A DNA stretch of 43,642 nucleotides from Egibacteraceae bacterium (GTDB lineage: Bacteria > Actinomycetota > Nitriliruptoria > Euzebyales > Egibacteraceae), in the NCBI GenBank assembly GCA_035540635.1, contig DATLGH010000063.1, forward strand, positions 1-43,642, read 5' to 3'. Under the pieces are notes generated by a model that worked only from the letters and a program-made list of their open reading frames with translations, did not search any database and was not told the origin of the DNA. How positions within the stretch are numbered: the stretch's first letter is position 1; each line of letters begins with the position of its first letter. The position numbers and the translations under genes were made by a program. Positions 2,722 to 36,663 of the stretch are shown here, piece by piece.

Positions 2722-3351
2722 TCAACCCCGGCTCCCGCACGGCCGCTTGGGGAGTGTGTCCTCGACGTCGTCGCGCAGATCGACCACCATCTGCGGGTCC
2801 GTGTCCTCGGCGGATGGCAGGGGACCAGCCGGGAAGTGCTCGGCGATGAGCATGATGGGCAGACCGCCGGACACGACGCGGTAGACGCGGAACAACAGCT
2901 GGTCGGCGCTGTCGCAGCCGAAGTCGCCGGCCAAGGCGCCTACGGGGCGCCGGCCGGTGCGCAGGATCTCCCTGAACGTCTCCACGCGGTGCCTGCGCAG
3001 CACCCGGCCGATGGGCTCGGCCGACGACAACAGCGACTCCCGAACCGGCGCGGACAGCCGGTCGAGCACGACCGCGGTGTCGGCGTAGACGTAGTTGCGC
3101 CCGGTGCGCCGGCCCCGGAGGAGAACCCTGCGCCGCAGGATCGTCTCGTGCCCGGCCGGCTGGAGGTCCTCGTCGGTCAGCTGGACCGGGGTGATGAACT
3201 GCTCGTGTCCGGCCAGCTCGATCGGGTCGTCGAACCATGACTCCAGCAATTGCACCACGGTGCCGTCGGTGGTCAGCAGGATACGCTGCAGGGCGTCCGG
3301 TGACGCCCCGGCCCGCAGCCCCGCGTCCAGCGTGTCGTGGGTTCCGGTCAT
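2722..3351 (-). CDS. Chorismate pyruvate-lyase (DUF98/PF01947 type), makes 4-hydroxybenzoate
   Basis: 209 residues. Family members such as mycobacterial Rv2949c remove pyruvate from chorismate to give 4-hydroxybenzoate, the aryl starter of phenolic glycolipids. Visible family blocks: LQRILLTTDGTVVQLLE near the N-terminus, RRVLLRGRRTGRNYVYAD, VLDRLSAPVRESLL, PIGRVLRRHRVETFREI, and RVYRVVSGGLPIMLIAEHFP near the C-terminus. I chose ATG 3351 because GGGAG lies just upstream and it gives the usual length; an in-frame GTG at 3399 is possible. The gene heads a leftward pair with the sulfotransferase and faces the ligase gene across a 240-base regulatory gap. It is the best clue to the pathway's building block. 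Confidence 0.85.
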   Translation of the reverse strand: MTGTHDTLDAGLRAGASPDALQRILLTTDGTVVQLLESWFDDPIELAGHEQFITPVQLTDEDLQPAGHETILRRRVLLRGRRTGRNYVYADTAVVLDRLSAPVRESLLSSAEPIGRVLRRHRVETFREILRTGRRPVGALAGDFGCDSADQLLFRVYRVVSGGLPIMLIAEHFPAGPLPSAEDTDPQMVVDLRDDVEDTLPKRPCGSRG

Positions 3352-3463
3352 ATCCACTCTCCCGTCATGCGCCTCGGTCAACACCAGTTCCTTTCCCACG
3401 CGGGCATCGGCCGATCCCCAAAGGACAACTGTAGCCCCCGAAAGGTTGATGGTAAGAAGATAT

Positions 3464-18154: not shown

Positions 18155-19456
18155 TCAGGGGCTCAGGCGGTCGGGACCGCGGAACAGGTAGGTGACCTCC
18201 CGGACGTCGCCGACACCGAAGAGGCTCATGAGCATCCGGGTGAGCCCGAGACCGAAGCCGCCGTGCGGGGGGCAGCCGTAGCGGAAGAAGTCGAGGTACT
18301 GGTGGACGACGTCCACCCGCACGCCCCGGGCCCTCGCCTGCGCGACGAGCCGGTCGTAGCGGTGCTCGCGCTGGGCGCCGCTCGTGATTTCCAGACCTTT
18401 CCACAGCAGGTCGAAGCTGCGCGTCTCGACCGAGCCCTCGTCGCAGCGCATGTGATAGAAGGGCCGGGAGACGTCGGGGTAGTCGGTGACGAAGACGAAC
18501 TCGTGGCCGTGCTCCCGGGCGACGTGGGCGGCGAGGCGCCGTTCCCCCTCCGCGTCGAGGTCGTCGGCGTCCCCGCCGACCCCCCATCCCGTCGAGGCGA
18601 CGATCTTCTTCGCCTCCGCGAGGCTCAGTCGCGGGAACGGCATGCGCGGCACACGCACATCGGTGCTGAACCAGCGGGAGATCTGCGGGGCGTGCGCGTC
18701 GCGCACCGCGCCGAGGACCCGGCACAGCAGCTGCTCCTCGTGCACGAGCAGGTCCTCGAGACCGTCGATCCACGACATCTCGATGTCGACGCTCGTGAAC
18801 TCGGTGTCGTGGCGCGCCGTCGGGTCGGCCTGGGCACGGAAGACCGGCCCGATCTCGAAGACGCGGTCGAAGCCGGCGGCCATGGCCATCTGCTTGTAGA
18901 ACTGCGGCGACTGCGCAAGCCAGGCCCGCTGACCGAAGTACGCGACGGCGAACAGCTGGTCCCCCGACTTGTTCGGGATCGGCTTGAGCTTGGGGGAGTG
19001 GACCTCGAGGAACCCCTGCTCGTGCCAGAAGTCGCGCATGGCACGCTCGGCCGTCGTCTGGACCTCGAAGATCAACCGGTTCCGCGCGTGGCGCAGGTCG
19101 AGGTAGCGCCAGTCGAGCCGTTCGTCGAGCGGGGAGGCGGCGGTCACCGGCAGGGGTTGCGCCGCCCCGCCCGCGACGCGCAGGTGGTCGAGGGCGACCT
19201 CGACGTGGCCACGCGCACCCGTTACCGTCCCGGTCGCCTCGACGGCCGACTCGACGGTGACGTCCGTCAGCGCGCCATCCCCTCCCGCGAGGGGCGTCCC
19301 GACGAGGATGGCCGTCCCGGTGTGGTCACGCAGCACGATCGCCGGCGGGTCGTCCGTGCCGCGCACCTCCTTCGCCCACCCGCACAGACGGATCCGCTCG
19401 CCGAGCCGGCGCCCGATCTCGGACACGAGCGTGCGCGGGAGGGGATGCGCCGTCAC
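18155..19456 (-). CDS. Divergent AspRS/AsnRS-like class II aminoacyl-tRNA synthetase paralog
   Basis: 433 residues, archaeal-type AspRS layout: N-terminal OB-fold (IRLCGWAKEV to about residue 100) then class II core. Seen: FLEVHSPKL, LAQSPQFYKQM, motif 2 FRAQADPTARHDTEF (about 205-220), GLEITSGAQREHRYD, and motif 3 GFGLGLTRML (about 403). Compared with archaeal AspRS as I recall it, several substrate-site residues differ: the loop TEGGAELF is NKSGDQLF, FRAE is FRAQ, KPFY is RPFY, and the ER of motif 3 is TR. It starts 4 bases after the stop of a loading ligase-carrier gene, so it is in the biosynthetic operon. It could make an aminoacyl adenylate or aminoacyl-tRNA for the pathway, or be a resistance copy. 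An ordinary AspRS is less likely. Confidence 0.8.
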   Translation of the reverse strand: MTAHPLPRTLVSEIGRRLGERIRLCGWAKEVRGTDDPPAIVLRDHTGTAILVGTPLAGGDGALTDVTVESAVEATGTVTGARGHVEVALDHLRVAGGAAQPLPVTAASPLDERLDWRYLDLRHARNRLIFEVQTTAERAMRDFWHEQGFLEVHSPKLKPIPNKSGDQLFAVAYFGQRAWLAQSPQFYKQMAMAAGFDRVFEIGPVFRAQADPTARHDTEFTSVDIEMSWIDGLEDLLVHEEQLLCRVLGAVRDAHAPQISRWFSTDVRVPRMPFPRLSLAEAKKIVASTGWGVGGDADDLDAEGERRLAAHVAREHGHEFVFVTDYPDVSRPFYHMRCDEGSVETRSFDLLWKGLEITSGAQREHRYDRLVAQARARGVRVDVVHQYLDFFRYGCPPHGGFGLGLTRMLMSLFGVGDVREVTYLFRGPDRLSP

Positions 19457-19460
19457 CGGG

Positions 19461-21200
19461 TCAGCGGGCCTCGGCGACGGCGTGCTCGACCGCGCGGGCG
19501 AGCTCGGCCACCGTCGGCTGCTCGAAGACGGCGGTCACCGGCAGGTCGATGTCGAACGCGTCGCACAGCCGGGCGACCACCTGCGCGGCGGCGAGCGACT
19601 GGCCGCCGAGGTCGAAGAAGTCGTCCTGCACGCTGATGCCCTCGCGTCCCAGCACGGCCTGCCACACCGCCACAACCGCCGACTCCGCCTCGCTGCGCGG
19701 GCTCTCCGCCACCGGGGCGGTGACCGCCCGTGCCACGAAGCGCTCGCGCAGCTCCGTCTTCAGCACCTTGCCGGACGGGTTGCGGGGGAGACGGTCGACG
19801 AAGAAGACCTGGCGGGGGACCTTGTGCTCCCCGAGGCGCTCGCGGGCGAAGGACTGCAGCTGCCGCACCTCGACCCCCGAGCTCGCGACGACGGCCGCGG
19901 CGACCGCCTGCCCGAGCACGTCGTGGGGGATGCCGAAGACCGCTGCCTCCCGCACAGCGGGGTGCGCGGACAAGACGTTCTCGACCTCCACGGAGGAGAT
20001 GTTGAGCCCGCCGCTGATGATGAGGTCCTTCTTGCGGTCGACGAGGTAGAGGTAGCCCTCCTCGTCGAGGTAGCCGAGGTCGCCCGTCCGCAGCCAGTCG
20101 CCCGCGAAGGCGTCCGCCGTCGCGTCGGGGTCCCGGTAGTACACGCGGCGGGGCGCGCCGGCCCGCCGCAGCCAGACCTCGCCCGTCTCACCGGCCGGCA
20201 GGTCCGCCCCCGTCTCGTCGACGACCCGGACCTCGGTGCGACCTACGGGCCGGCCGACCGACCCCGGGCGTCGCGGGTCATAGCCCATGAGGGTGCGGGC
20301 ACTGCCCGACTCGGTGAGGGCGTAGGCGTTCCACAAGGTGGCGTTCGGGAAGGCGGCGGCCAGGCGCGGCAGCAGCGCCGGGGGCACGGGTGCGGACGAC
20401 AGGGTGACCCGCTCGACCGACGAGACGTCGTGGCGCGCCGCCGCCCCGGAGGAGACGACCATCTCCGCCATGGCGGGCACGAGCTGCAGCCGCGAGATCC
20501 GCCGTTGCGCCACGAGCGCGCAGAGGCGGTCCGGGTCGAACGTCGGCAGCACGAAGGCGGTGACCGGCCGCCGCAGCGGCATGCGCAAACACTCCTGGCC
20601 GGCGTTCGTGCCGACCGGGAAGGCGTGCACGAACGCGACCCTGCCGCTTGGTGCCTGCGGCGGCAGGTCGTGGACGAGGATGCTTTCGTGGGTGCAGGCG
20701 ACGCCCTTGGCCGTGCCCGTCGTGCCGGAGGTGTAGATGATCTCGGCGAGGTCCCCCGCGTGGCTGGACGGCGCGCTCAGCGGGGGGGCGGCGGCGCCTG
20801 CACGCTCGAGGAAGCCCGGCTCGACGACGGGATCCAAGCCCGTCGACGCGGTGAGGTCGGAAGGTCCGACCGTCATCGCCACGCCCGCGTGCTCGGCGAT
20901 CGCCGCGAGCTCGGCCGGGGAGAAGCGGGACGACAGCGGGACCGCGACCGCACCGAGCTTGAGCACCGCGAGGTAGCACACGGCGTAGTCCGTCCATCGC
21001 GCGTTGTCGAACAGCAGCACGACCCGGGCGCCGGCGGTGACCCCCTCGGCGGACAGGCCGCGGGCCGTCGCGTCCGACCGCTCGTCCCAGTCACGGTAGG
21101 TCAGGGCAGGGCCCCCGTCCACGACGAGGGCCAATGCGTCAGGCTCCGCGGCCGTTCGAAGCCGAAGAAGATCGGGAACACGCGTCGCCTTGGGCTTCAT
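19461..21200 (-). CDS. Acyl-AMP ligase fused to a carrier domain (A-PCP loading didomain)
   Basis: 579 residues. An FadD/CaiC-like ligase (about 1-510) followed by a carrier domain (about 515-579). Ligase motifs intact: IIYTSGTTGTAKGV, NAYALTESG, WLRTGDLGYLDEEGYL, VDRKKDLIISGG and the lysine in NPSGKVLKTEL. The carrier motif DDFFDLGGQSLAA keeps the phosphopantetheine serine (near residue 532). It should load its own or a partner carrier with an acyl or aryl acid and pass it to a condensation domain; neither is present here, so it acts in trans. First gene of the leftward run; a TAACCT box 10 bases before the ATG may be its -10. It resembles the degenerate first domain of the 1622-residue protein (shared HAFPxGTxAGQ segment). 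Confidence 0.88.
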   Translation of the reverse strand: MKPKATRVPDLLRLRTAAEPDALALVVDGGPALTYRDWDERSDATARGLSAEGVTAGARVVLLFDNARWTDYAVCYLAVLKLGAVAVPLSSRFSPAELAAIAEHAGVAMTVGPSDLTASTGLDPVVEPGFLERAGAAAPPLSAPSSHAGDLAEIIYTSGTTGTAKGVACTHESILVHDLPPQAPSGRVAFVHAFPVGTNAGQECLRMPLRRPVTAFVLPTFDPDRLCALVAQRRISRLQLVPAMAEMVVSSGAAARHDVSSVERVTLSSAPVPPALLPRLAAAFPNATLWNAYALTESGSARTLMGYDPRRPGSVGRPVGRTEVRVVDETGADLPAGETGEVWLRRAGAPRRVYYRDPDATADAFAGDWLRTGDLGYLDEEGYLYLVDRKKDLIISGGLNISSVEVENVLSAHPAVREAAVFGIPHDVLGQAVAAAVVASSGVEVRQLQSFARERLGEHKVPRQVFFVDRLPRNPSGKVLKTELRERFVARAVTAPVAESPRSEAESAVVAVWQAVLGREGISVQDDFFDLGGQSLAAAQVVARLCDAFDIDLPVTAVFEQPTVAELARAVEHAVAEAR

Positions 21201-23875: not shown

Positions 23876-24336
23876 GCGGCACCGCCTTCGGGGGCGTGCA
23901 CCACGTCGGCATCACCGTCACCGACCTCGCCGCTGCCGCGGCCTTCTGGGAGCGCCTGCTCGGCGCTCCCCCGCGGGACCGCCGCACCCTCGACGGTCCC
24001 CAGCTCGGCACGCTGGTCGGCTACCCCGGCGTGCGGATCGACTCGTGCTGGTTCGATCTGCCCGGTGGCGTCGCGCTCGAGCTCCTGCACTACCTCGACC
24101 GCCCGGAGGCCCCCTACGACCCGGGGACTGCCCACCCCGGCAACGTCCACGTCTGCCTGCGGGTGGACGACATGGCCGCCGCCCATGCCCACGCGGTGGC
24201 CTGCGGGGCCCGGCCGGTCAGCGAGGCGCCGATCGAGGTCTTGCACGGTCCCCGGGCCGGCACGAAGGTCGCCTACCTCCGCAGCCTCGACGGGGTCACC
24301 ATCGAGCTCCACCAGCCCGGGAGGGCAGATGGCTAG
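23872..24336 (+). CDS. VOC-superfamily (glyoxalase-like) protein
   Basis: 154 residues, ATGA overlap with the aminotransferase. Two beta-alpha-beta-beta-beta repeats are visible: VHHVGITVTDLAAAAAFWERLL and GNVHVCLRVDDMAAAHAHAVA. Likely metal ligands are the first His pair, E in VALELLHY, H in GNVHVCL and E in VTIELHQP, so a metal site looks complete. VOC proteins include lyases, epimerases, dioxygenases and antibiotic-binding resistance proteins. Here it may be a tailoring enzyme or a self-protection binder; the sequence does not decide. Its end overlaps the next gene by 8 bases. Confidence 0.8.
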   Translation: MSGTAFGGVHHVGITVTDLAAAAAFWERLLGAPPRDRRTLDGPQLGTLVGYPGVRIDSCWFDLPGGVALELLHYLDRPEAPYDPGTAHPGNVHVCLRVDDMAAAHAHAVACGARPVSEAPIEVLHGPRAGTKVAYLRSLDGVTIELHQPGRADG

Positions 24337-25324
24337 CGGATCGGGCACGAGGCTCGTGCTGCTCGGGACCGCCGGCGGGCCCCTCCCGTCGCCGGTGCGG
24401 GCGGGCATCTCCCAGGCGGTCGTCGCCGGGGGTCGCGCCTACCTCGTCGACTGCGGCAGCGGCGTCACCCGCCAGCTGCGCCGCGCCCGGCTGCTGTCGA
24501 GCCTGCACGCGGTGTTCCTCACCCACCTTCACTCCGATCACGCCTGCGACTACTTCAACCTCTTCCTGCTCGGGTGGCCCATCCTGCAGTGGGGTCCACC
24601 GGTCGACGTCTACGGGCCCGGCAGCGCGGGCCGGCTGCCTGCGCCGACCACGGAGCGCCCGGCGGACCGCCCCCTGTCCATCGTCAACGCCTCCAACCCC
24701 GTGCCCGGCCTCGCCGACCTCACCCGCTCGCAGATCGCCGCGCACGCCTACGACATCAACGTGCGGATCCGTGAGGCGGGCCGCACCGACCTCACCGAGC
24801 TGGTCGTGCCGCACGAGATCGCGCTGCCGCCCGACCTCGAGGCCGGCCCGGGGCGTGTGGCTCCGCCCATGGCGCCGGTTCTCGTGGCCGAGGACGACCG
24901 CGTGCGGGTGACCGCCGTGCTCGTCGAGCACGCCCCGGTCTTCCCGGCCTTCGCCTACCGGTTCGACACCGCCGACGGTTCGGTCGTCGTGTCGGGCGAC
25001 ACGGCGCCGTGCGGGAACCTCGTCGCGCTCGCGCGTGGCGCCGACGTCCTCGTCCACGAGGTGTTCGCCGACGACATCTGGGCGCAGCGTCCGGAGGAGG
25101 TGAGCTGGGAGGCCAGCCAGCGCGAGCATCATCTCTTCACGGCCCACACCGCGCTGAGCCAGGTGGGCAAGGTGGCCAGCGAGGCGGAGGTCGGCCGGCT
25201 GGTCCTCACGCACTTCGTACCCGGCGACGACGTCCTGCCGGACGAGCACTGGCTGCGCGGACTGCGCGGGACGTTCGACGGCGAGGTGACGGTCGGCAGC
25301 GACCTGCTGGAGCTGCCGCTGTGA
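24329..25324 (+). CDS. Metallo-beta-lactamase-fold hydrolase (RNase Z / AtsA arylsulfatase-like)
   Basis: 331 residues, start overlapping the VOC gene by 8 bases. Motifs: LVLLGTAGGPLPSPVRAG at the N-terminus, YLVDCGSG, the zinc motif THLHSDHACD (about residue 66), VVSGDTAPCGNLVALARGADVLVHE and LVLTHFVPGDD. Order and spacing fit the RNase Z-like group that contains the AtsA-type arylsulfatases rather than classical lactamases. Candidate activities are cleavage of a sulfate ester, phosphodiester or lactone. With a sulfotransferase elsewhere in the cluster, an arylsulfatase role is attractive but unproven. Its stop overlaps the NRPS start (GTGA). Confidence 0.82.
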   Translation: MASGSGTRLVLLGTAGGPLPSPVRAGISQAVVAGGRAYLVDCGSGVTRQLRRARLLSSLHAVFLTHLHSDHACDYFNLFLLGWPILQWGPPVDVYGPGSAGRLPAPTTERPADRPLSIVNASNPVPGLADLTRSQIAAHAYDINVRIREAGRTDLTELVVPHEIALPPDLEAGPGRVAPPMAPVLVAEDDRVRVTAVLVEHAPVFPAFAYRFDTADGSVVVSGDTAPCGNLVALARGADVLVHEVFADDIWAQRPEEVSWEASQREHHLFTAHTALSQVGKVASEAEVGRLVLTHFVPGDDVLPDEHWLRGLRGTFDGEVTVGSDLLELPL

Positions 25325-28300
25325 CGACGCTGCGCGGCCCGACCATGCCGCTGCCCGAGGACGCGACGCTCGCCACCCTCGTAGAGGCTCAGGTCGACCG
25401 CACCCCCGGAGCCGTCGCGCTCGTCGGCGGCGACGAGCAGGTGACCTACGCGGCGCTCGACGACCGCGCGAACCGGCTCGCGCACCACCTGCGGGCCCGC
25501 GGGGTCGGTCCGGACGTCCCGGTGGCCGTCTGCGTCGAGCGCTCGGTCCACCTCGCCGTCGCCCTCCTCGGCGTGCTCAAGTCAGGCGGCGCCTGCCTGC
25601 CCCTCGATCCCGCCTACCCCGCGGCGCGCCTTGCGTTCATGCTCGCCGACGCCGCGCCGCCGGTCGTGCTCACCGTCGACCGCCTCACCGGGGCGCTCCC
25701 CGCCTACCCCGGCCCCGTCGTCCGGCTCGACGCCGACTGGTCGGAGGTGGCCCGCAACCCCGCGGACCGCCCGGACGCCGCGGCCGACCCCGACCACCTC
25801 GCGTACGTGATGTACACCTCGGGCTCCACCGGCCAGCCCAAGGGTGTCATGCTCGCCCACCGGGGACTCGTCAACCACAGCCTCGCCGTCCGCGAGCTCT
25901 ACGGGCTCCGCCCCGACGACCGGGTGGTGCAGTTCTGCTCGATCAGCTTCGACGTGAGCGTCGAGGAGATCTTCCCCACGTGGGCGTCCGGTGGTGCGGT
26001 GGTCCTGCGACCCGACGACGTCCCGGTGCTCGGGCGCGCGTGGGTGGAGTGGCTGCGGCGCCTGCGGGCCACCGTGCTCAACCTGCCGACGGCGTACTGG
26101 CACGAGTGGGTCCGCGACCTCGCGACGCACGACGAGCGGGTCCCCGGCGACGTCCGCCTCGTCGTGGTAGGCGGTGAGAGGGCGCTGGGTTCGGCCTACC
26201 GTTCGTGGCTCGAGGTGGGAGGTGACGTGGTGCCGTGGGTGAACGCCTACGGGCCCGCCGAGACGAGCGTGCTCGCCACGGCCTACCAACCGCCGGTGGG
26301 TGCGCGCCTGCCCGACGGGGTCGACCCGCCGATCGGGCGCCCCCTGGCGAACACGACGCTGCACATCCTCGACGCGCGCGGCGAGGCGGTGTCGGCCGGA
26401 ACCCCCGGCGACCTCCACATCGGCGGGGTCGGCGTCGCCCGCGGCTACCTCAACAGCCCAGATCTCACCGCTGAGCGCTTCGTGCCGGACCCCTTCTCCA
26501 CCGCGCCGGAAGCCCGCCTGTACCGCACCGGCGACCTCGTGCAGGTGCTGCCCGACGGCAACCTCGCGTTCGTCGGGCGCGTCGACGAGCAGGTCAAGGT
26601 GCGGGGATTTCGCATCGAGTGCCGGGAGGTCGAAAGCGTCCTCACCCGCCACCCCGCCGTTACCGAGGCGGTGGTCGTCGCCCGCGAGGACAGCCCCGGG
26701 GACCGGCGCCTGGTCGCCTACGTCGTGGGCGGCCAGGAGCCCGCCGAGCCGGGGGGGCTGCGCCGCTTCCTCGCCGAGCGCCTGCCCTCCTACATGGTGC
26801 CGGGCGCGTTCGTCCACCTCGACGGCCTGCCCCTGTCGCCCAACGGCAAGGTCGCCCGGGAGGCGCTGCCGCCCCCCGGCGACGCGCGCGCCGAGCTGCC
26901 GACCCGGTGGGTGGCTCCGCGCACGCCGACCGAGGAGGCGATCGTCGCCATATGGTCGCGGGTGCTCGGCGTGACCGACGTCGGTGTCGACGACGACTTC
27001 TTCGACCTCGGGGGGCACTCACTGCAGGCGACGCACGTCGTCGCCCAGGTGCGTGAGCGCTTCGGTGTCGCGGTCGGCGTGCGCGCCCTGCTCGACGCCC
27101 CGACGGTCGCCGAGCTCGCCGCAGCCGTCGATGCCGAGCGCGGCCACGACCCCAAGGCGCCACCGCTGCGGCCCCAACCGCTGCGTCCGGGGCAGCGCAT
27201 CCCGCTGACCCTGTCCCAGGAGCAGATGTGGCGGCTCGAGACGACCGCCGACCCACCGGGCCTCTTCAACGTCACCGCCCTGCACCGCTTCTCCGGGCGC
27301 GTGGACGAGGCCGTGCTGCGCGGGGCGCTCGGGCACCTCGCCCAACGCCACGACGCGTTGCGCACGAGCTTCCACGTCGACGACGGCGAGCCGCATCAGA
27401 CCGTGGCGCGTGAGGTGCCGGCGGTCCTCGATGTGACCGACCTCACCACGACCGACCCGGCCGAGCAGGAGGACGCGCTGCGCCGGCGGGTCGCCGCGCA
27501 GGACGCCGCGCCGTTCGACCTCGCCGCACCACCCCTGTGGCGCGCGTGCCTGTACCGGCTCGACGACGAGCGCTGCGTGCTCGCGGCCACCTTCGACCAC
27601 CTCGTCTGCGACGGGACCTCGGCGTACGTGTTCCTCAGTGAGCTGTCGGCTGCCTACGACGCGCTGGCGGCCGGCCGGACACCGGCGTTGCGGCGGCTGG
27701 CGGTCTCCTACGCCGACTACGCCCTGTGGCAGCGCCAATGGCTGGCGGAGGAGCGTCTCCAGGCCCAGGTCGACTACTGGAAGCGCAAGCTTGCGGGGAT
27801 GCCGCTCGGCCCGGCCGTGCCGTTCGACCGGGTGCCGGAGCAACCGAGCCGGCGCATCGTCGCCCGCCCCATGTCCGTCGCGCCGGAGATGTACGAACGG
27901 CTGCAGCGGCTCGCCCGGCGCACCCGCAGCACGGTGTTCGTCACGACCGCCGCCGTCGTGCAGGCGCTCTGCAGTCGCGTCGGAGGGGCAACGGACGTGG
28001 TTTTCAGCACGACGCTGAGCGGGCGCCAGCATGCCGAGCTCGACGGGCTCGTCGGCTGCTTCCACGGCGTGGGGAGGATCCGTACCGACCTCTCCGGGGA
28101 TCCGCCCTTCGCCGAGGTGGTCGCGCGGGTCCGGGAGAGCGTCCTCGGGCTGTTCGAGCACCAGGACGTGCCCTTCTGGCGCGTGCGGCAGGCGGTGCTC
28201 CCCCACTTCCCGTCCTCGGGAGCGGCGCTGCTCGCCGCCGCGCCGACCGAGTTCCAGTACTTCCACACCGCGCACGACGAGTGGGCGCCCGGCACTGGCG

Positions 28301-28557
28301 TGGTCGAACGCCCCGGGCCGGACAAGGGGCCCGACGAGCTGTACTTCCGGGGCCAGCTCCACCCGCTTGCGATCACGTTCCTCGACGACGGCACCCAGCT
28401 CTGGGGGGAGCTGCGCTACAAGAGCGACTTCTACGACGCCGACACGATCGAGCGCCTCGCGGTGGGGCTCGACACGCTGCTCGGGGCTGTCACGGAGGAC
28501 GTCTCCCTGCGCCTCTCCGAACTGGTCGTGGATCCCCGCCAGTCGGCGAGGCCATGA
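25321..28557 (+). CDS. Non-ribosomal peptide synthetase, A-PCP-C
   Basis: 1078 residues. Adenylation domain about 15-520: MYTSGSTGQPKGVMLAH, NAYGPAETSV, LYRTGDLVQVLPDGNLAFVG, VDEQVKVRGFRIE and NGKVAREAL, all functional. Asp in FDVSVEEIF indicates an alpha-amino acid. Residues read by eye at the ten specificity positions are D-V-E-N-V-V-A-V-L-K; I cannot assign a substrate. Carrier about 540-600 with serine in DDFFDLGGHSLQA (near 567). Condensation domain about 620-1070: its C3 motif is DHLVCDG, so the second, catalytic His is kept but the first is Asp. The order A-PCP-C without thioesterase means the terminal C domain probably joins the loaded residue to a partner supplied in trans, perhaps from the ligase-carrier protein. 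Last gene of the operon. No MbtH-like gene is present. Confidence 0.92.
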   Translation: MTTLRGPTMPLPEDATLATLVEAQVDRTPGAVALVGGDEQVTYAALDDRANRLAHHLRARGVGPDVPVAVCVERSVHLAVALLGVLKSGGACLPLDPAYPAARLAFMLADAAPPVVLTVDRLTGALPAYPGPVVRLDADWSEVARNPADRPDAAADPDHLAYVMYTSGSTGQPKGVMLAHRGLVNHSLAVRELYGLRPDDRVVQFCSISFDVSVEEIFPTWASGGAVVLRPDDVPVLGRAWVEWLRRLRATVLNLPTAYWHEWVRDLATHDERVPGDVRLVVVGGERALGSAYRSWLEVGGDVVPWVNAYGPAETSVLATAYQPPVGARLPDGVDPPIGRPLANTTLHILDARGEAVSAGTPGDLHIGGVGVARGYLNSPDLTAERFVPDPFSTAPEARLYRTGDLVQVLPDGNLAFVGRVDEQVKVRGFRIECREVESVLTRHPAVTEAVVVAREDSPGDRRLVAYVVGGQEPAEPGGLRRFLAERLPSYMVPGAFVHLDGLPLSPNGKVAREALPPPGDARAELPTRWVAPRTPTEEAIVAIWSRVLGVTDVGVDDDFFDLGGHSLQATHVVAQVRERFGVAVGVRALLDAPTVAELAAAVDAERGHDPKAPPLRPQPLRPGQRIPLTLSQEQMWRLETTADPPGLFNVTALHRFSGRVDEAVLRGALGHLAQRHDALRTSFHVDDGEPHQTVAREVPAVLDVTDLTTTDPAEQEDALRRRVAAQDAAPFDLAAPPLWRACLYRLDDERCVLAATFDHLVCDGTSAYVFLSELSAAYDALAAGRTPALRRLAVSYADYALWQRQWLAEERLQAQVDYWKRKLAGMPLGPAVPFDRVPEQPSRRIVARPMSVAPEMYERLQRLARRTRSTVFVTTAAVVQALCSRVGGATDVVFSTTLSGRQHAELDGLVGCFHGVGRIRTDLSGDPPFAEVVARVRESVLGLFEHQDVPFWRVRQAVLPHFPSSGAALLAAAPTEFQYFHTAHDEWAPGTGVVERPGPDKGPDELYFRGQLHPLAITFLDDGTQLWGELRYKSDFYDADTIERLAVGLDTLLGAVTEDVSLRLSELVVDPRQSARP

Positions 28558-30076: not shown

Positions 30077-31288
30077 TCAGTAACCACCGCCCCCTTCGGC
30101 GAGACGCGGTCCGTACGGTGCGGCGTCGAGCCACCTGCCCAAACGGGGGACGCGGGTGGCGAGTCGGGCAGCGGTCTCCTGGCGGAGGCGCGTGCCAAGG
30201 CCTTTCGCCTCCATGAACGCCAGCGCCTGCCGCGCGGCGTCGCGGTTGCGCAGCGCCGCCGCCCGCCGTTCGCCGGCGAAGGTGTCGAGCGCCGCGTGTG
30301 CCACGGCGGGATACGCCGCGTGGAGTGCCTGCACCGCCGCCGCGGCGGCCGCGTCCGCGTCCGCCACACCGGAGTTCAGCCCGCGCGCGCCGAACGGCGC
30401 GAAGACGTGCGCCGCGTCGCCGACGAGCATCACCCGCCGGCCGGGGTCGACGAAGCGCTCGGCAACCGCCTGCTGGAACCGGTACGTCGACACCCAGGTG
30501 ACACGGTTGGCGTAGCCTGTCGGCAGGATCCGGCGGACCCAGGCGCGTGCGCCCTCGGCGCTGCCGAGCGCGTCGGCGTCGTCGCCCCGGCGCAGCTGGA
30601 CGTCGATCCTCCAGCCGCCCGCGAACGGCACGAGCAGGACGTTGCGCCCGTCCACTGCCGGATGGCGGTAGTGGTAGACCCGCTCGACCGGAAGGGGCCC
30701 CTCGTCGGCCTCGGCGACGTCGACGACGACGAACGGGGCGTCGGACCGCTCGCCCTCCAGCGCGACACCGAGACAGGCCCGCACGGTGGAGCGGGGACCG
30801 TCCGCGGCGATGACGTACGGCGAGGTCCTGCGCTCGCCGTCGGGGCCCGTGAGCTCCACGACGTCGCCGTCGACCTGCACGCCGCGGACCGGCCAGGCCC
30901 ATGCGACGTCGACCCCGGCCGCCGCGCAGGCCGCGAGCAGGACCCCCTCGATCGTGGTCTGCGGCAGGCTCGTGAGCGGGGGCAGGCGCGAGCCGTCCCA
31001 TGGGGGGTAGGTCTTCGCGTAGACCTCCCGGCCCTCGAAGAAGGTCCGCTTCGTGGGCCACACCACGCCCCGCCGGGCGAGCTCCCACCCGAGGCCGGGG
31101 CGGTTGCGCTCGTAGAGCTCGAGGCTCGCGCGGTGCTGGAAGATCGCCCGGCTGCCCGGGCGAGCGCGGTTCGCCGGCTCCGCCTCGACAACGAGCAGGT
31201 CGTGGACGCCGCGGGCGCGCAGCGCGAGCGCGACGGTCAGCCCGACGGGGCCTGCGCCGACGACGATGACCGCGCGCCGATCCTCCAC
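30077..31288 (-). CDS. FAD-dependent aromatic monooxygenase (class A)
   Basis: 403 residues. FAD motif VIVVGAGPVGLTVALALRARG at the N-terminus, the DG motif YVIAADGPRSTVRACLG (about 155-170), and MLVGDAAHVFAPFGARGLNSG (about 285-305) match the 4-hydroxybenzoate hydroxylase / RdmE / PgaE group. These use NADPH and oxygen to hydroxylate phenols or aromatic polyketides. A phenolic 4-hydroxybenzoate unit in the pathway fits this well. It begins 10 bases after the stop of the 1622-residue NRPS-like gene with GAGGAGGGCGAC as ribosome site, so it is the last gene of that operon. There is no thioredoxin-like C-terminal domain, so it is of the short form. Confidence 0.9.
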   Translation of the reverse strand: MEDRRAVIVVGAGPVGLTVALALRARGVHDLLVVEAEPANRARPGSRAIFQHRASLELYERNRPGLGWELARRGVVWPTKRTFFEGREVYAKTYPPWDGSRLPPLTSLPQTTIEGVLLAACAAAGVDVAWAWPVRGVQVDGDVVELTGPDGERRTSPYVIAADGPRSTVRACLGVALEGERSDAPFVVVDVAEADEGPLPVERVYHYRHPAVDGRNVLLVPFAGGWRIDVQLRRGDDADALGSAEGARAWVRRILPTGYANRVTWVSTYRFQQAVAERFVDPGRRVMLVGDAAHVFAPFGARGLNSGVADADAAAAAAVQALHAAYPAVAHAALDTFAGERRAAALRNRDAARQALAFMEAKGLGTRLRQETAARLATRVPRLGRWLDAAPYGPRLAEGGGGY

Positions 31289-31298
31289 GTCGCCCTCC

Positions 31299-34200
31299 TC
31301 AGCCCGGGGATCGTTCGACGGTGGCGGAGGGCGGCCGGTTGGCGGCGATGTCGGCGGCGAGGGTGTCGACGGTGCGGTTGCGGGTCACGTGAGCAGCGGC
31401 GACCGGCAGGCCGGCCTCCCGGGCGCGCGCGAGCACCTCGAGGAAGGAGAAGCGCTGCCAGTAGTTGCCGTCCGCGGGGACCTCGTCGACGCCGAGGACG
31501 TCCGCCCACAACGCCGTGAGGACGCGTGCCGCCCCGCCCGCACCGGTGGTTTCCGGGGAGGCGGAGCCGTCAGCCGATCCGGTCGGGTCCGCGCCCGGGC
31601 CCTCTACGGCCACCACGATCGCCGCAGGGCAGGCGTAGCCGGGCAGCCGTGCCCACAAGGCCCGCCGGACGTCCGCGACGCTGGGAGGCCGCCCCTCCGG
31701 GACGACGTGGGCGACGAGGGCCGGGTCGCCGTGCTCGTCGCGGTGGACGGTCACGGCGGCCCCCCGGACACCCGGGACCCCGAGCACGGCGGCGCGGACG
31801 CGTTCCGCGTCGACCCGAAAGCCCCGCAGGTCGACCACGGCGTCGCGGGATCCGAGCAGCTCAACCGTCCCGTCGGGCAGCGCCCGTGCGAGCTGGCCGG
31901 TGGGCCAGAGTCGCGGAGCGGCTCCGCGGGCCGGGGTCTGCACGAAGGGTCCGGGGGCCGGCGCGCTGACCGCAGGCATGACGCCGGGGCCGCCGAGGTG
32001 CAGCTCACCGGTGGCCCAGGGCGGCACGGGGCGTCCCTGGGTATCGAGGACCAGCGCGTCCATGTTCGCGAGCGGGCGTCCCGCCACCGGCCGGGCGTGG
32101 TCGCTCACCACGGCGGCGGTCGCGGCGAAGGCGCACTGCGGCGGGCCGTAGACGGCGAGGGAGCGCAGGGTCGTCGCCCCGCGAAGTCGCCGCCACGCCG
32201 CCTGGTCGAGGCCCCGGCGCCCGCCCACCACGAGCACCGGCTCCGCATCTGCACGCCCAGCCCGCTCGAGCGCGTCGGGCAGGCCGGCCTGGAGCAGCGC
32301 CGAGGCCTCCTCGGGTGCGCAGTCGAAAAGGTCGATCATCCCCGTGGCGGCCAGGGCCACGATCCGCTTGGGGTCGCCCGGCGTCCCGTCGTCGCCCACG
32401 CACAGGCGGTGACCGTCGAGGAGGGCGACGAGCTGGCGGACGAAGCCGTCACGGGTGGGGGCGGGCAGCCAGATCCGGCGTGGGTCGCCCCCCTGTGGGA
32501 GGAGCCCACGGAGCCCGGCCGCGAGGTGGAGCAGGTTGCGGTGGTCGAGCGCGACGCCGTCGGGGACCGCGGACGCTCCGCTGCCGAAGAAGACGGTCGC
32601 CGTGGCGTCGGGCGACAGGGCGGGGGGGTCGAGCGGCGGGGCATCGTTGGTGTCGTCGACCAGCTCGGCGGCGCGGAGCGGGACGTAGCGGGAGAGACTG
32701 CCGTGCGGATCGTCGCCGACGACGACGCCCGCGGCGGTCTTCGCGAGGATCTGTGGGAGGCGCTCGTCCACGGGGTCCAGCGCGACCCACGCGGCCCCTG
32801 CCTTCCACACGGCGAGGGCGGCGACGACGGCGGCGGTCGAGGGGCCGAGCGCGATGCCGACGGTCGCGCCGGGTTCGACGCCGGCGGCCTGCAGGCGCCC
32901 GGCGATCCGATCGGACCGGGCGTCGAGGTCGGCGTAGGTGATGGCCCGGGTGGGTGTGCGGACGGCCACGGCCTGTGGGATCCGTCGCGCCTGGGCGCGG
33001 AAGGCGTCGTGGACGGTCACTGCCGGCACCTCCGAGGCGGGGCCACGCGCGCGACCGACCACCTGAGCGGCATCCCGCTCGTCGAGGATGCGCAGCCGCG
33101 AGGCCGGCCGGGAGGGGTCGGCGACCGCGTCGGCGAGCAGCGTCGCGTAGCTGTCGAGCAGCCGGCGCACCGCCGGCCCGTGGAAGGCCCCACGGGCGAC
33201 GCAGCTGAGCGCGTCGTCGGTCTCGGCCACCGACACGATCACGAACGTCCCCTGGTAGAGGCCCGCGCCCCACGCCACTGCCGGCTGGTCGGGGGTGGCG
33301 CCGTCCTCAGCCGCGAAGTGGGCGCGGCGGGCCGACGCGGCGGTCGCGAAGCCGGTCGACGCCGAGCCGGGAAGGGCGAGCTCCTCGCGGGGGGTCTCGC
33401 CCTGGAAGACGAGGGCGACGTGCGGCACGAGGCCGTGCGCGGCGGCTGGTTCCGCCAGCACGCCCTGCACCATGGTCTCGAAGGCGAGGTCCTGGTGGGA
33501 CAGGGCGCCGAGCAGCGCCGTGCGGGTGCGCGCGACCACGTCGGTGAAGGGGGGGTCGCCGCCCAGCTGCAGCCGCAGCGGCACCTTCTTCGTGAAGCAG
33601 CCGATCAGCCCCTCGTGCTCGGTGCGGTTGCGGTTGGCGACCACGGTCGCGAGCAGCAGGTCCTCTGCGCGTGCGAAGCGATGCACGAGGACCCCGTATG
33701 CGGCGAGCATGACCATGAAGACCGTCGCGCGGTGACCCCGGGCGAACGCGCGAAGGCCGGCGTGCACCTCCGCGGGCAGGTCCAGCGAGACCGGCTCGCC
33801 GGCGGCCTGGGGAGTGCCCTCGGGACGCGCCGGGTCGTCGACCGGCAGCTGGGTGGTGAAGGGGGCGCCAGCGAGCTCACGTCGCCAGAAGGCCATCTCG
33901 CGCGTCCCGGCCGGACCGGCGAGACGGCGCCGCTGCGCGCGGGCGAAGTCGCGGAAGCCGAGGGGCAGCGCGGGCAGGGGACTCGCCCGACCGGCGGCGA
34001 AGGCGGCGTAGAGGGCGGCGAGCTCCCGCCTGAAGACCCCGACGGACCAGTCGTCGAAGACGCTGTGGTGCGTGCGGATGACGAGGACGTGATCCTCCGG
34101 CCCGAGTCGCAGGAGAGTGGGGACGAACATCGCGTCGGCGGTGAGGTCGAACGGACGCCGTCCCGCCTCCGCCACCCGCCGGGCGACCTCCTCGTCGCGT

Positions 34201-36167
34201 TCCGGGAGAGCCACGTCGGCGAGGTCGACGACCGTCAGCCGCATGGGGCGGTGCGGCCGCACGTGCTGAACGAGGCGTCCCTGCGTGAGCGCGAAGGTCG
34301 TGCGCAGCGGCTCGTGCCGGCCGACGATCTCGTCGAGGGCACGCGTCAGCGCCCCGGCGTCGAGCGGGCCACGGTAGCGGCGCGCGAGGCCTGGCAGGTT
34401 CTGGCAGCCCGGCGCGAAGTGCTCGTGCCAGAGCATGCCCTCCTGGGAGAAGGCGACCGGGGCCGCCGCCCCCTCGGGCGCGGGAGCCTGCCGTTCGACC
34501 GCCACGGTCAGGCCCGCCACCGTCGGTGCGGAGGCGAAGGCGTCATAGGGCACGCGCACCCCGCAGGCCTCCTCGACCAGGTCGAGCATCAGGCGCCCCG
34601 CAAGGGGGTCACCTCCGAGGGAGAAGAAGTCGTCGGTGGGCCGGATGTCCCGGCGCCCGAGCACGCGCCGCCAGGTCGCTGTGACCGCCCGCTCGGCGGG
34701 TGCGGGCTCGCCGGCTGCGCCCGCAACGTCGATCGCCGGAGCGCTCTCCGTGCCTCTCCCGAGGCGGCGGCGGAGCTCGGCGGCAAGGAGCACCCCGGCG
34801 CGGTTGCGCGGGAGGTGGTCGACGACGTAGACGGCTCCCGGCCGGTTGGCCTCGCCGATGCGGGCGCCGACCCATGCCTGCAGCGCGGATGGTGCGGTCC
34901 CCGAGCGCAGGGCGACGGCGGCCGCGACGGTGTCCGCCGCGGCGTCGTCGGGCAGTCCGAGCACGGCCGCGTCGACGACGTCGGGGTGGGCGCGCAGCGT
35001 GTGCGCGACCTCCGCCTTGCACACGCTCGCTCCCCGATGGACGACGACGTCGTGCCGACCCGAGACGAGGTAGAGGAGACCGTCACCCTCGACGTACCCG
35101 ACGTCACCCGTCCACACGGGGCTCGACGCCTCCCCCGCGAGGACCGAGACCCGCCCGACCTGGCCGGGACGGGCGGTCTGACCGTCGGGGTCGACCACGG
35201 CCACGCGCGTTCCGCGGCCGGGTCGTCCGGCGGCGCCGGGCCGGGCCCGGTCGTGGAGGATGACCGTCCGCACCGCCGGGCCGTGCCCGAGCACGTCGAC
35301 GAGCACGAGTGCGGCGCGGGGGAACAGCACCGCGAGTCGGGTGAGCAGCCCTGCGGACACGCCCCCCGAGGCGAGGACGAGCCGGGTGACGTGCGCGACG
35401 TCGTCAACAGCGAGCAGCCCCGACTCGAGGACGGCGTGCGCAGCTGCGGGATGCAGCGCACAGGCGGTGATGCCCCGCCGCGACACCAGCGCGCACCACC
35501 GGTCGACGGCGAAGACGGGAAGCACCACCGACGGCAGGGCGTCGTCGGCGAGCAGCGCGAAGAGCGCGTCCTGGCCGGCCAGCGTCCCGGGGGGGAACGC
35601 GTGCAGCAGCGGCGGTGCGCACGGCGGCGCGTCCCCGGCGCCCCACGGTCCGGCGCGAACGTCGGGGGTGCGAGTCACGATCTCGGGCGGTGCGAGCGGG
35701 TGGGGCACCGCGAGCAGCTCGGCTGGGGGCCCGGGCGGGTCGAGGGAGACCGGCGGCAGGCCTCGCCCGGCGCTGTCGAGGTCCCCCACGGCGACCGTGG
35801 GAACCCCCGCGTCGCCCAGGGGCAGGCCGTCGGCCCCGACGACGACCGACACCCCACAGGCGTGCAGCGTCCGGTTCAGGGCGGGCCCGGCCAGGTCGCC
35901 CGGCAGCGGGACGGGGACGGCGCCCGCTCGCTGGACCGCGACGTAGGCCGCCGCGTACTCGCGCCAGCTCGCCGCGTCGAACCGCAGGGCCACCCGCTCG
36001 CCGGGAGGGATCCCCTCGCGCCGCAGCCCCCGCGCCAGGGCATCGGCTCGCTCCTGCCAGGCGCCGTACGTGAGCTCCCCGCGCCCGTCGACCGTCATCG
36101 CGACCACGTCGGATCGGGCGGCGCCTGCCTGCCGGAGGCGAGCGTGCAGCCCGCCGTTCGCCGTCAT
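31299..36167 (-). CDS. NRPS-like protein with degenerate A-PCP-C-A-PCP architecture
   Basis: 1622 residues in one open frame. Domain 1 (about 1-475) is ligase-like but lacks the TSGTTGxPKG loop and the YxxTE glutamate; the catalytic lysine position reads NRAGVLLAAEL. Carrier 1 reads DDFFSLGGDPLAG: the phosphopantetheine serine is Pro (near 519). The condensation domain (about 570-985) looks functional: RHEPLRTTF, THHSVFDDWS (catalytic second His kept), IGCFTKKVPLR and HQDLAFETM. Adenylation domain 2 (about 1000-1500) reads FGSGASAVPDGV for PKG, YGPPQ for YGPTE, WPTGQL for RTGDL, and lacks the NGK lysine. Carrier 2 reads GNYWQRFSFLEVL with no GGxS. So probably only condensation activity remains. 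It may act as a scaffold-embedded C domain or acyltransferase on partners' carriers. Middle gene between the SnoaL-like and monooxygenase genes. Confidence 0.85.
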   Translation of the reverse strand: MTANGGLHARLRQAGAARSDVVAMTVDGRGELTYGAWQERADALARGLRREGIPPGERVALRFDAASWREYAAAYVAVQRAGAVPVPLPGDLAGPALNRTLHACGVSVVVGADGLPLGDAGVPTVAVGDLDSAGRGLPPVSLDPPGPPAELLAVPHPLAPPEIVTRTPDVRAGPWGAGDAPPCAPPLLHAFPPGTLAGQDALFALLADDALPSVVLPVFAVDRWCALVSRRGITACALHPAAAHAVLESGLLAVDDVAHVTRLVLASGGVSAGLLTRLAVLFPRAALVLVDVLGHGPAVRTVILHDRARPGAAGRPGRGTRVAVVDPDGQTARPGQVGRVSVLAGEASSPVWTGDVGYVEGDGLLYLVSGRHDVVVHRGASVCKAEVAHTLRAHPDVVDAAVLGLPDDAAADTVAAAVALRSGTAPSALQAWVGARIGEANRPGAVYVVDHLPRNRAGVLLAAELRRRLGRGTESAPAIDVAGAAGEPAPAERAVTATWRRVLGRRDIRPTDDFFSLGGDPLAGRLMLDLVEEACGVRVPYDAFASAPTVAGLTVAVERQAPAPEGAAAPVAFSQEGMLWHEHFAPGCQNLPGLARRYRGPLDAGALTRALDEIVGRHEPLRTTFALTQGRLVQHVRPHRPMRLTVVDLADVALPERDEEVARRVAEAGRRPFDLTADAMFVPTLLRLGPEDHVLVIRTHHSVFDDWSVGVFRRELAALYAAFAAGRASPLPALPLGFRDFARAQRRRLAGPAGTREMAFWRRELAGAPFTTQLPVDDPARPEGTPQAAGEPVSLDLPAEVHAGLRAFARGHRATVFMVMLAAYGVLVHRFARAEDLLLATVVANRNRTEHEGLIGCFTKKVPLRLQLGGDPPFTDVVARTRTALLGALSHQDLAFETMVQGVLAEPAAAHGLVPHVALVFQGETPREELALPGSASTGFATAASARRAHFAAEDGATPDQPAVAWGAGLYQGTFVIVSVAETDDALSCVARGAFHGPAVRRLLDSYATLLADAVADPSRPASRLRILDERDAAQVVGRARGPASEVPAVTVHDAFRAQARRIPQAVAVRTPTRAITYADLDARSDRIAGRLQAAGVEPGATVGIALGPSTAAVVAALAVWKAGAAWVALDPVDERLPQILAKTAAGVVVGDDPHGSLSRYVPLRAAELVDDTNDAPPLDPPALSPDATATVFFGSGASAVPDGVALDHRNLLHLAAGLRGLLPQGGDPRRIWLPAPTRDGFVRQLVALLDGHRLCVGDDGTPGDPKRIVALAATGMIDLFDCAPEEASALLQAGLPDALERAGRADAEPVLVVGGRRGLDQAAWRRLRGATTLRSLAVYGPPQCAFAATAAVVSDHARPVAGRPLANMDALVLDTQGRPVPPWATGELHLGGPGVMPAVSAPAPGPFVQTPARGAAPRLWPTGQLARALPDGTVELLGSRDAVVDLRGFRVDAERVRAAVLGVPGVRGAAVTVHRDEHGDPALVAHVVPEGRPPSVADVRRALWARLPGYACPAAIVVAVEGPGADPTGSADGSASPETTGAGGAARVLTALWADVLGVDEVPADGNYWQRFSFLEVLARAREAGLPVAAAHVTRNRTVDTLAADIAANRPPSATVERSPG

Positions 36168-36225
36168 GGTGGTCGCCGCGGCGCCCGCGGGTGCGAGGGC
36201 GCCGCGCGGTCACGCACCGCCCGTC

Positions 36226-36663
36226 TCACCCGGCGAGATCGGCCGCATCGGAACCGGCCGCGCAGCCCCGAGTGAGGAACCGGTCGAGCTCCTCCTGGCC
36301 GGTGGTGAACGCCGAGCGTTCGCTGACGTGCCCGTCGACGACGCGGAAGACCTCGACGGTCTTCCAGCCTCGCGGACCCTCCCCGAAGTCGTGCACCGCC
36401 TCGGCGAAGGCGACGACGTGCTCGCCGTGGACCACGATCTCGTCGTCTTCGACGCGTGCGGGAGAGGGCCAGAGGGGGGCGAAGTAGCGTTCCCAGGCAG
36501 CTTCGCGGCCGAGGTATGACCCGGCCATGGGGTTGTTGCCCTCGACGTTCCAGACCGCATCCTCGGCGAGGCAGCCGAGGAAGCGGTCGCGGTCGCGGTC
36601 GTTGAAGGCTGCGTGCACCGCGCGTACGACCTGCGCGGCGGGTCCGTCGTCGTGGGCGGCCAT
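36226..36663 (-). CDS. SnoaL-like / NTF2-fold protein
   Basis: 145 residues; AGGAGACCCC before ATG 36663. The fold is recognisable from AAQVVRAVHAAFNDRDRDRFLGCLAEDAVWNVEG, then MAGSYLGREAAWERYFAPLW, IVVHGEHVVAFAEAVHDF and WKTVEVFRVVDGHVSE, the usual SnoaL-like/ketosteroid-isomerase-like order. Members include aldol cyclases of aromatic polyketides, isomerases and dehydratases, as well as stress proteins. It opens the leftward operon containing the NRPS-like protein and the monooxygenase, 58 bases upstream of the former. A cyclisation or isomerisation step is plausible; catalytic residues cannot be assigned by eye. Confidence 0.8.
   Translation of the reverse strand: MAAHDDGPAAQVVRAVHAAFNDRDRDRFLGCLAEDAVWNVEGNNPMAGSYLGREAAWERYFAPLWPSPARVEDDEIVVHGEHVVAFAEAVHDFGEGPRGWKTVEVFRVVDGHVSERSAFTTGQEELDRFLTRGCAAGSDAADLAG

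Follow-up and report, generated by a model that had tools for sequence, protein, structure and literature searches.

A pseudo-NRPS gene with dead adenylation and carrier domains keeps a condensation domain under purifying selection

We analysed a 43,642-nucleotide stretch of DNA (hereafter, the window) from an Egibacteraceae bacterium. Our interest was a pseudo-NRPS gene, referred to as PSN. Pfam matches in the protein, all above curated cut-offs, occur in the order AMP-binding, AMP-binding_C, PP-binding (residues 494-553), Condensation (residues 569-916), AMP-binding, and AMP-binding_C. Nearby genes encode a live didomain protein (P2), a live NRPS (N3), a class III aminotransferase, a glycosyltransferase, an AspRS-like protein, a metallo-beta-lactamase-fold protein, and transporters. 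Many of these recur next to PSN in three other genomes (L029, L074, and L078). The features at the PSN locus are as follows.

31299..36167, reverse strand: PSN, 1622 residues, A-PCP-C-A-PCP, with both A and both PCP domains dead
34758..36167, reverse strand: A1, dead acyl-ligase-type adenylation domain, residues 1-470
34488..34715, reverse strand: carrier 1, dead, residues 485-560, GGDP instead of GGxS
33087..34487, reverse strand: condensation (C) domain, residues 561-1027
34050..34070, reverse strand: catalytic motif HHSVFDD, residues 700-706, with D706 where most C domains have Gly
33585..33590, reverse strand: K860-K861, invariant in the PSN family; the C5 motif of other C domains is FVNT
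31548..33050, reverse strand: A2, dead amino-acid adenylation domain, residues 1040-1540
31302..31547, reverse strand: carrier 2, dead, residues 1541-1622, with conserved YWQxF[STA]FL at the attachment site; four carrier-type helices in a structural model
30077..31288, reverse strand: FAD monooxygenase gene, downstream of PSN and 10 bases from its stop codon

We infer that the FAD monooxygenase gene and PSN are probably on the same transcript.

A first-pass annotation, made from the sequence, stated that both adenylation domains lack the P-loop, the TE motif, and the catalytic lysine. Alignment to live homologs bears this out. In A1, LLAVPHPLAPPEI is found where live homologs have IIYTSGTTGTAKG, VLGHGPA takes the place of YALTESG, and RAGVL that of PSGKV. 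The only exception, a matter of detail, is the A7 motif TGD, which survives in A1. In A2, the P-loop position (YTSGSTGxPKG) is occupied by FFGSGASAVPDG; YGPPQC is found for YGPTE, TGQ for TGD, SRD for GRxD, and GS for GK. Nearly all of the A2 ATP-site residues tested (A3, A5, A7, A8, and A10) are lost. We looked for a lysine at a shifted position in the A-domain alignments and found none. With 84 live A domains for comparison, the window A2 retains 0.63 of highly conserved columns (live 0.95, s.d. 0.07), 0.45 of moderately conserved columns (live 0.59), and 0.21 of those weakly conserved (live 0.27). This pattern fits a domain that may have lost catalysis while its scaffold relaxed only in part. 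The placement of A2 in an adenylation-domain tree is unsure (branch 2.03).

The carriers are similarly defective. Carrier 1 reads FSLGGDPLA and the attachment serine is replaced by Pro521, as first noted, with the CCC codon at 34605-34607, a few bases from the position originally quoted (34612). Carrier 2 reads YWQRFSFLE and, again as described previously, has no GGxS. We searched the alignments for a displaced carrier serine. The sole arguable example, in ‘FSFL’ of carrier 2, is Ala in L029 and Thr in L114, and so is not a conserved attachment site. An AlphaFold2 model of the PSN tail (mean pLDDT 77) has an A_C fold followed by the helices of carrier type, and best matches the A_C-PCP parts of NRPS structures.

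The PSN reading frame is open for 1622 codons without interruption, as the first-pass annotation had it. The accompanying argument, that the frame would not have survived random decay, carries little weight. The PSN region has a G+C content of 76% and, on the forward strand, an antisense frame of 1669 codons (31266-36275) is open across the whole gene. This antisense frame is a by-product of high GC content, and long frames are a poor sign of genes here. Since the antisense strand is also open, the PSN frame is weak evidence for selection, and the case for the gene must rest on its relatives. Note that GC content by codon position is of coding type, and even, throughout PSN. Given this, and the exact position of the A2 stretch between parts that orthologs share, a chimeric assembly is unlikely.

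A scan of 84,980 species genomes identified five orthologs (L027, L028, L029, L074, and L078) with 46-52% identity to PSN of the window over the whole length. In a search of about 400 genomes from the order of L027, we found two more: one in G520 and a fragment, at a contig edge, in G676. Both are 51-52% identical to PSN over the matched stretch. PSN thus occurs in 7 of 397 sampled genomes of this order (Acidimicrobiales). Among 66 genomes of the window genome's own class, PSN was found only in the window genome. A plasmid search returned, among the matches listed, just ordinary NRPSs with less than 40% identity. The patchy occurrence of PSN in two groups suggests that the cluster has been transferred horizontally.

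All orthologs have intact frames and the same functions are dead. Thus, the P-loop, A5 Glu, and A10 Lys are missing from both A domains, and a carrier with the GGxS serine is absent, in the window and in orthologs alike. No live P-loop, catalytic lysine, or carrier serine was found in any of the seven. Codon-model omega values for PSN are 0.165 (C domain), 0.282 (A1 remnant), and 0.220 (tail), compared to 0.137 for the live paralog P2; these values describe only the parts shared with orthologs. Pairwise NG86 estimates of dN/dS range from 0.26 to 0.52, and the codon model is preferred because GC3 exceeds 90%. Hence, the shared parts are under purifying selection. The opposite pattern, in which orthologs retain intact motifs and dN/dS is close to 1, was not found. 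The earlier proposal that PSN is selected, and is not a recent pseudogene, therefore stands: the orthologs and omega values rule out the latter.

Members of the family have been reduced to different extents, and range from 617 to 1622 residues. The orthologs have deleted most of A2, of which only the C-terminal subdomain remains (from about residue 1441), and the C-terminal part of A1. Beyond residue 290 or so, A1 is found in the window copy only, with slightly more retained in L027. The N-terminal part of A1 (approximately residues 8-290) is kept in all orthologs that reach it. Carrier 1 has been deleted from all but one of the readable orthologs: it is present but dead in L027 (GGDE), absent in L028, L029, L074, L078, and L112, and the L114 fragment stops short of this part. 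The C domain, and the tail with YWQxF[STA]FL, are kept by all. Hence, full-length members have in common the A1 N-terminal part (about 280 residues), the A2 C-terminal subdomain, and the carrier 2 remnant; the L029 ortholog is 937 residues long. Judged from sequence, the window copy is the least reduced PSN known. A tree groups it with L027 and L028, and the remaining five members fall elsewhere; barring regain, there must have been two or more losses of most of A2.

These deletions bear on the first-pass proposal that PSN is a stand-alone condensation protein using its pseudo-domains for docking. The first part, a selected C-domain protein, is supported. Docking by full pseudo-domains is not, since orthologs have deleted the bulk of A2, the C-terminal end of A1 and, in most cases, carrier 1, so that these parts are dispensable. 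This leaves three candidates for docking: the N-terminal part of A1, the C-terminal subdomain of A2, and the remnant of carrier 2.

As initially recognised, the C domain has kept its HHxxxD core (H700-H701 and D705). The core is invariant, and Asp replaces the glycine that normally follows, in 8 of 8 family members; the orthologs retain the motif as HHxxxDDWS. The C domains of PSN group together as a single clade (SH-aLRT 100) within which the two His, the Asp, and the C2 Arg are invariant. The nearest C domains, by sequence, are the ordinary LCL-like Txo2 and Txo1. Of the 32 highly conserved columns of C domains, 9 differ in PSN, including those normally occupied by Arg at 682 (95% in the panel) and by Trp at 744. 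PSN has DD for DG, TKK for VNT, and six invariant, family-specific, basic residues (R596, R698, R713, R743, K860, and K861). Given the departures from canon, and the DD and TKK substitutions, activity or substrate may have changed. An AlphaFold2 model of the L078 ortholog at full length had a mean pLDDT of 60.6, too poor for its C domain or structural matches to be used as evidence.

Two other proteins encoded by the window, and a third found elsewhere, could be partners for the PSN C domain. Those in the window are listed here.

19461..21200, reverse strand: P2, live acyl-ligase/carrier didomain, paralog of the dead A1 and carrier 1 (41% identity), proposed donor in trans
25009..28557, forward strand: N3, live A-PCP-C NRPS, open reading frame as called, proposed acceptor module in the window cluster

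P2 was found in 7 of 7 ortholog genomes, where it is 58-63% identical and by far the best match in each, although the G520 copy sits on another contig. All P2 motifs are intact in seven aligned copies. In the adenylation-domain tree, P2 and the A1 remnants of PSN are sister groups (support 100/99). Hence, P2 and the dead first module of PSN descend from one ancestral didomain. The third protein, N2, is an A-MT-PCP-C protein in L029, L074, and L078, and is absent from the window contig. PSN, upstream, overlaps N2 by 4 bases (ATGA or GTGA) in these three genomes. Since N2 also starts without a C domain, the PSN C domain is located where the one missing from this module would be expected. The real start of N3 is probably about 330 bases downstream of that called. 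The C domain of N3 (27196-28527, forward strand) reads DHxxCDG, as does N3 of L029, L074, L078, and L112. Asp replaces the first His in these domains, and the catalytic His is retained. This is possibly a chain-releasing C domain.

On balance, we think it somewhat probable that PSN derives from an NRPS of acyl-ligase/ACP-C-A-PCP type, that its activating and carrier functions have died, and that its C domain is selected because it catalyses in trans, with P2 as donor and N2 or N3 as acceptor. Briefly, P2 would activate a carboxylic acid and load its own carrier. The PSN C domain would then join the P2-borne acyl group to the amine of a carrier-bound aminoacyl group on the next NRPS protein, presumably N2 in L029, L074, and L078 and N3 in the window. 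Partners may be held together, or the fold stabilised, by the pseudo-carrier and by what remains of A1 (N-terminal part) and A2 (C-terminal subdomain), and the other dead sequence of the window copy would mostly be a relic in the course of being lost. We infer both C-domain catalysis and working in trans from the lack of a live P-loop or carrier serine anywhere in the family, the low omega, the sister relationship and ubiquity of P2, the PSN/N2 overlap, and the tail model.

Elements of this scheme have precedents. PSN has a dead A domain in line and a live, stand-alone, A-T didomain is found in 8 of 8 genomes. Known trans-complemented cases of the albicidin type keep a live carrier; in PSN, both carriers are dead or deleted. 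In the albicidin, ramoplanin, and enduracidin clusters, the function lost with a dead A domain of the assembly line can be supplied by a live A-T didomain encoded separately (PMC8949500). In PSN, by contrast, no A domain or carrier is functional, the didomain that could stand in is itself a paralog of the dead module, and much of the dead sequence has been physically removed from orthologs. While rescue of dead A domains in trans (PMC8949500) and free-standing condensation enzymes (PMC13142362) are known, we did not find, in the open-access literature searched, a protein with both A domains and both carriers dead, conserved in eight genomes, and with the dead parts deleted stepwise; an earlier report is possible.

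An alternative is that PSN is catalytic but takes as acceptor a small amine or an amino acid in free form, like VibH, SgcC5, and OaaC, and requires no acceptor carrier. Here, D706 would hold the amine and the new basic residues the acid group of the acceptor. Those enzymes resemble PSN in having a single C domain that looks functional, in lacking a working A domain or carrier, and in keeping the HH and D (PMC13142362). Furthermore, the Gly of DG is often replaced in free-standing C domains acting on small amines (PMC13142362). Residues G131 and N335 of VibH have been reported as determinants of the acceptor (PMC6996325), and N335 is putatively the Asn that K860 replaces. Fuscachelin C3 has an acidic residue in place of the same Gly (HHxxxDE) and this touches the acceptor amine (PMC8097023), although C3 is a normal C domain in a live assembly line and PSN has Asp together with TKK in C5. 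A free acceptor would fit the Asp and Lys-Lys present in every member, and the six basic residues, and would account for the death of A2 and carrier 2 as well. Conversely, the overlap with N2 sets PSN beside an acceptor module, and its C domain resembles ordinary LCL-like domains. VibH, SgcC5, and OaaC are single-domain proteins; PSN keeps A and carrier remnants. Overall, we consider a free acceptor possible but unlikely. A fuller version, in which PSN joins the acyl group on the P2 carrier to a free acidic amine, recognised by D706 and the Arg/Lys residues, with the remnants as a docking platform, is rather unlikely. If true, the family would display the stepwise origin of a free-standing condensation enzyme from a modular one.

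The PSN C domain might instead be a binding platform that has lost condensation, like the X domain of glycopeptide NRPSs. X domains are also C-fold domains in assembly lines, off canon, and are known to recruit partners (PMC8949500); the nine altered columns, and remnants resembling binding parts on either side, would be in keeping with such a role. However, X domains have lost the catalytic residues of HHxxxDG, whereas both His and the Asp are invariant across the PSN family. Similarly, omega is lowest, among PSN parts, in the C domain. We regard a platform role as improbable. That PSN is a decaying pseudogene, open only since stop codons are rare at such GC content, accords with the open antisense frame, the missing catalytic motifs, and the poor column retention of A2, and may hold for window-only parts of A1 and A2, but is very improbable overall and already refuted for the C domain, A1 remnant, and tail by the intact orthologs, low omega (0.17-0.28), coding-type GC content, and invariant family-specific motifs such as YWQxFxFL.

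Whether the acceptor is free or, as we prefer, carried by N2 or N3, free-standing condensation enzymes are known and their stepwise origin from modular NRPSs is rarely seen. The PSN family spans a range, from full-length and all-dead (the window), through a dead carrier 1 without most of A2 (L027), to members without carrier 1. Hence, PSN catches a modular enzyme becoming nearly free-standing. There is also a caution for genome mining: PSN would be annotated as a two-module NRPS adding two residues, and probably adds none itself.

Other genes of the window deserve brief comment. The AspRS-like protein (18155-19456, reverse strand) is full length and scores above the NCBI cut-off for aspartate--tRNA(Asn) ligase. 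The gene is conserved next to PSN in L029, L074, and L078, and the window genome has a separate bacterial AspRS on contig C21. A role in self-resistance or substrate supply is possible. The metallo-beta-lactamase-fold protein (24065-25324, forward strand) is near the RNase Z and GntH families, and is 67% identical in L029 and L078, where it is also next to PSN. Finally, an Rv2949c-like chorismate lyase is encoded at 2722-3399 (reverse strand), with homologs close to the L074 and L029 clusters. Given this enzyme, p-hydroxybenzoate might be the acyl starter.
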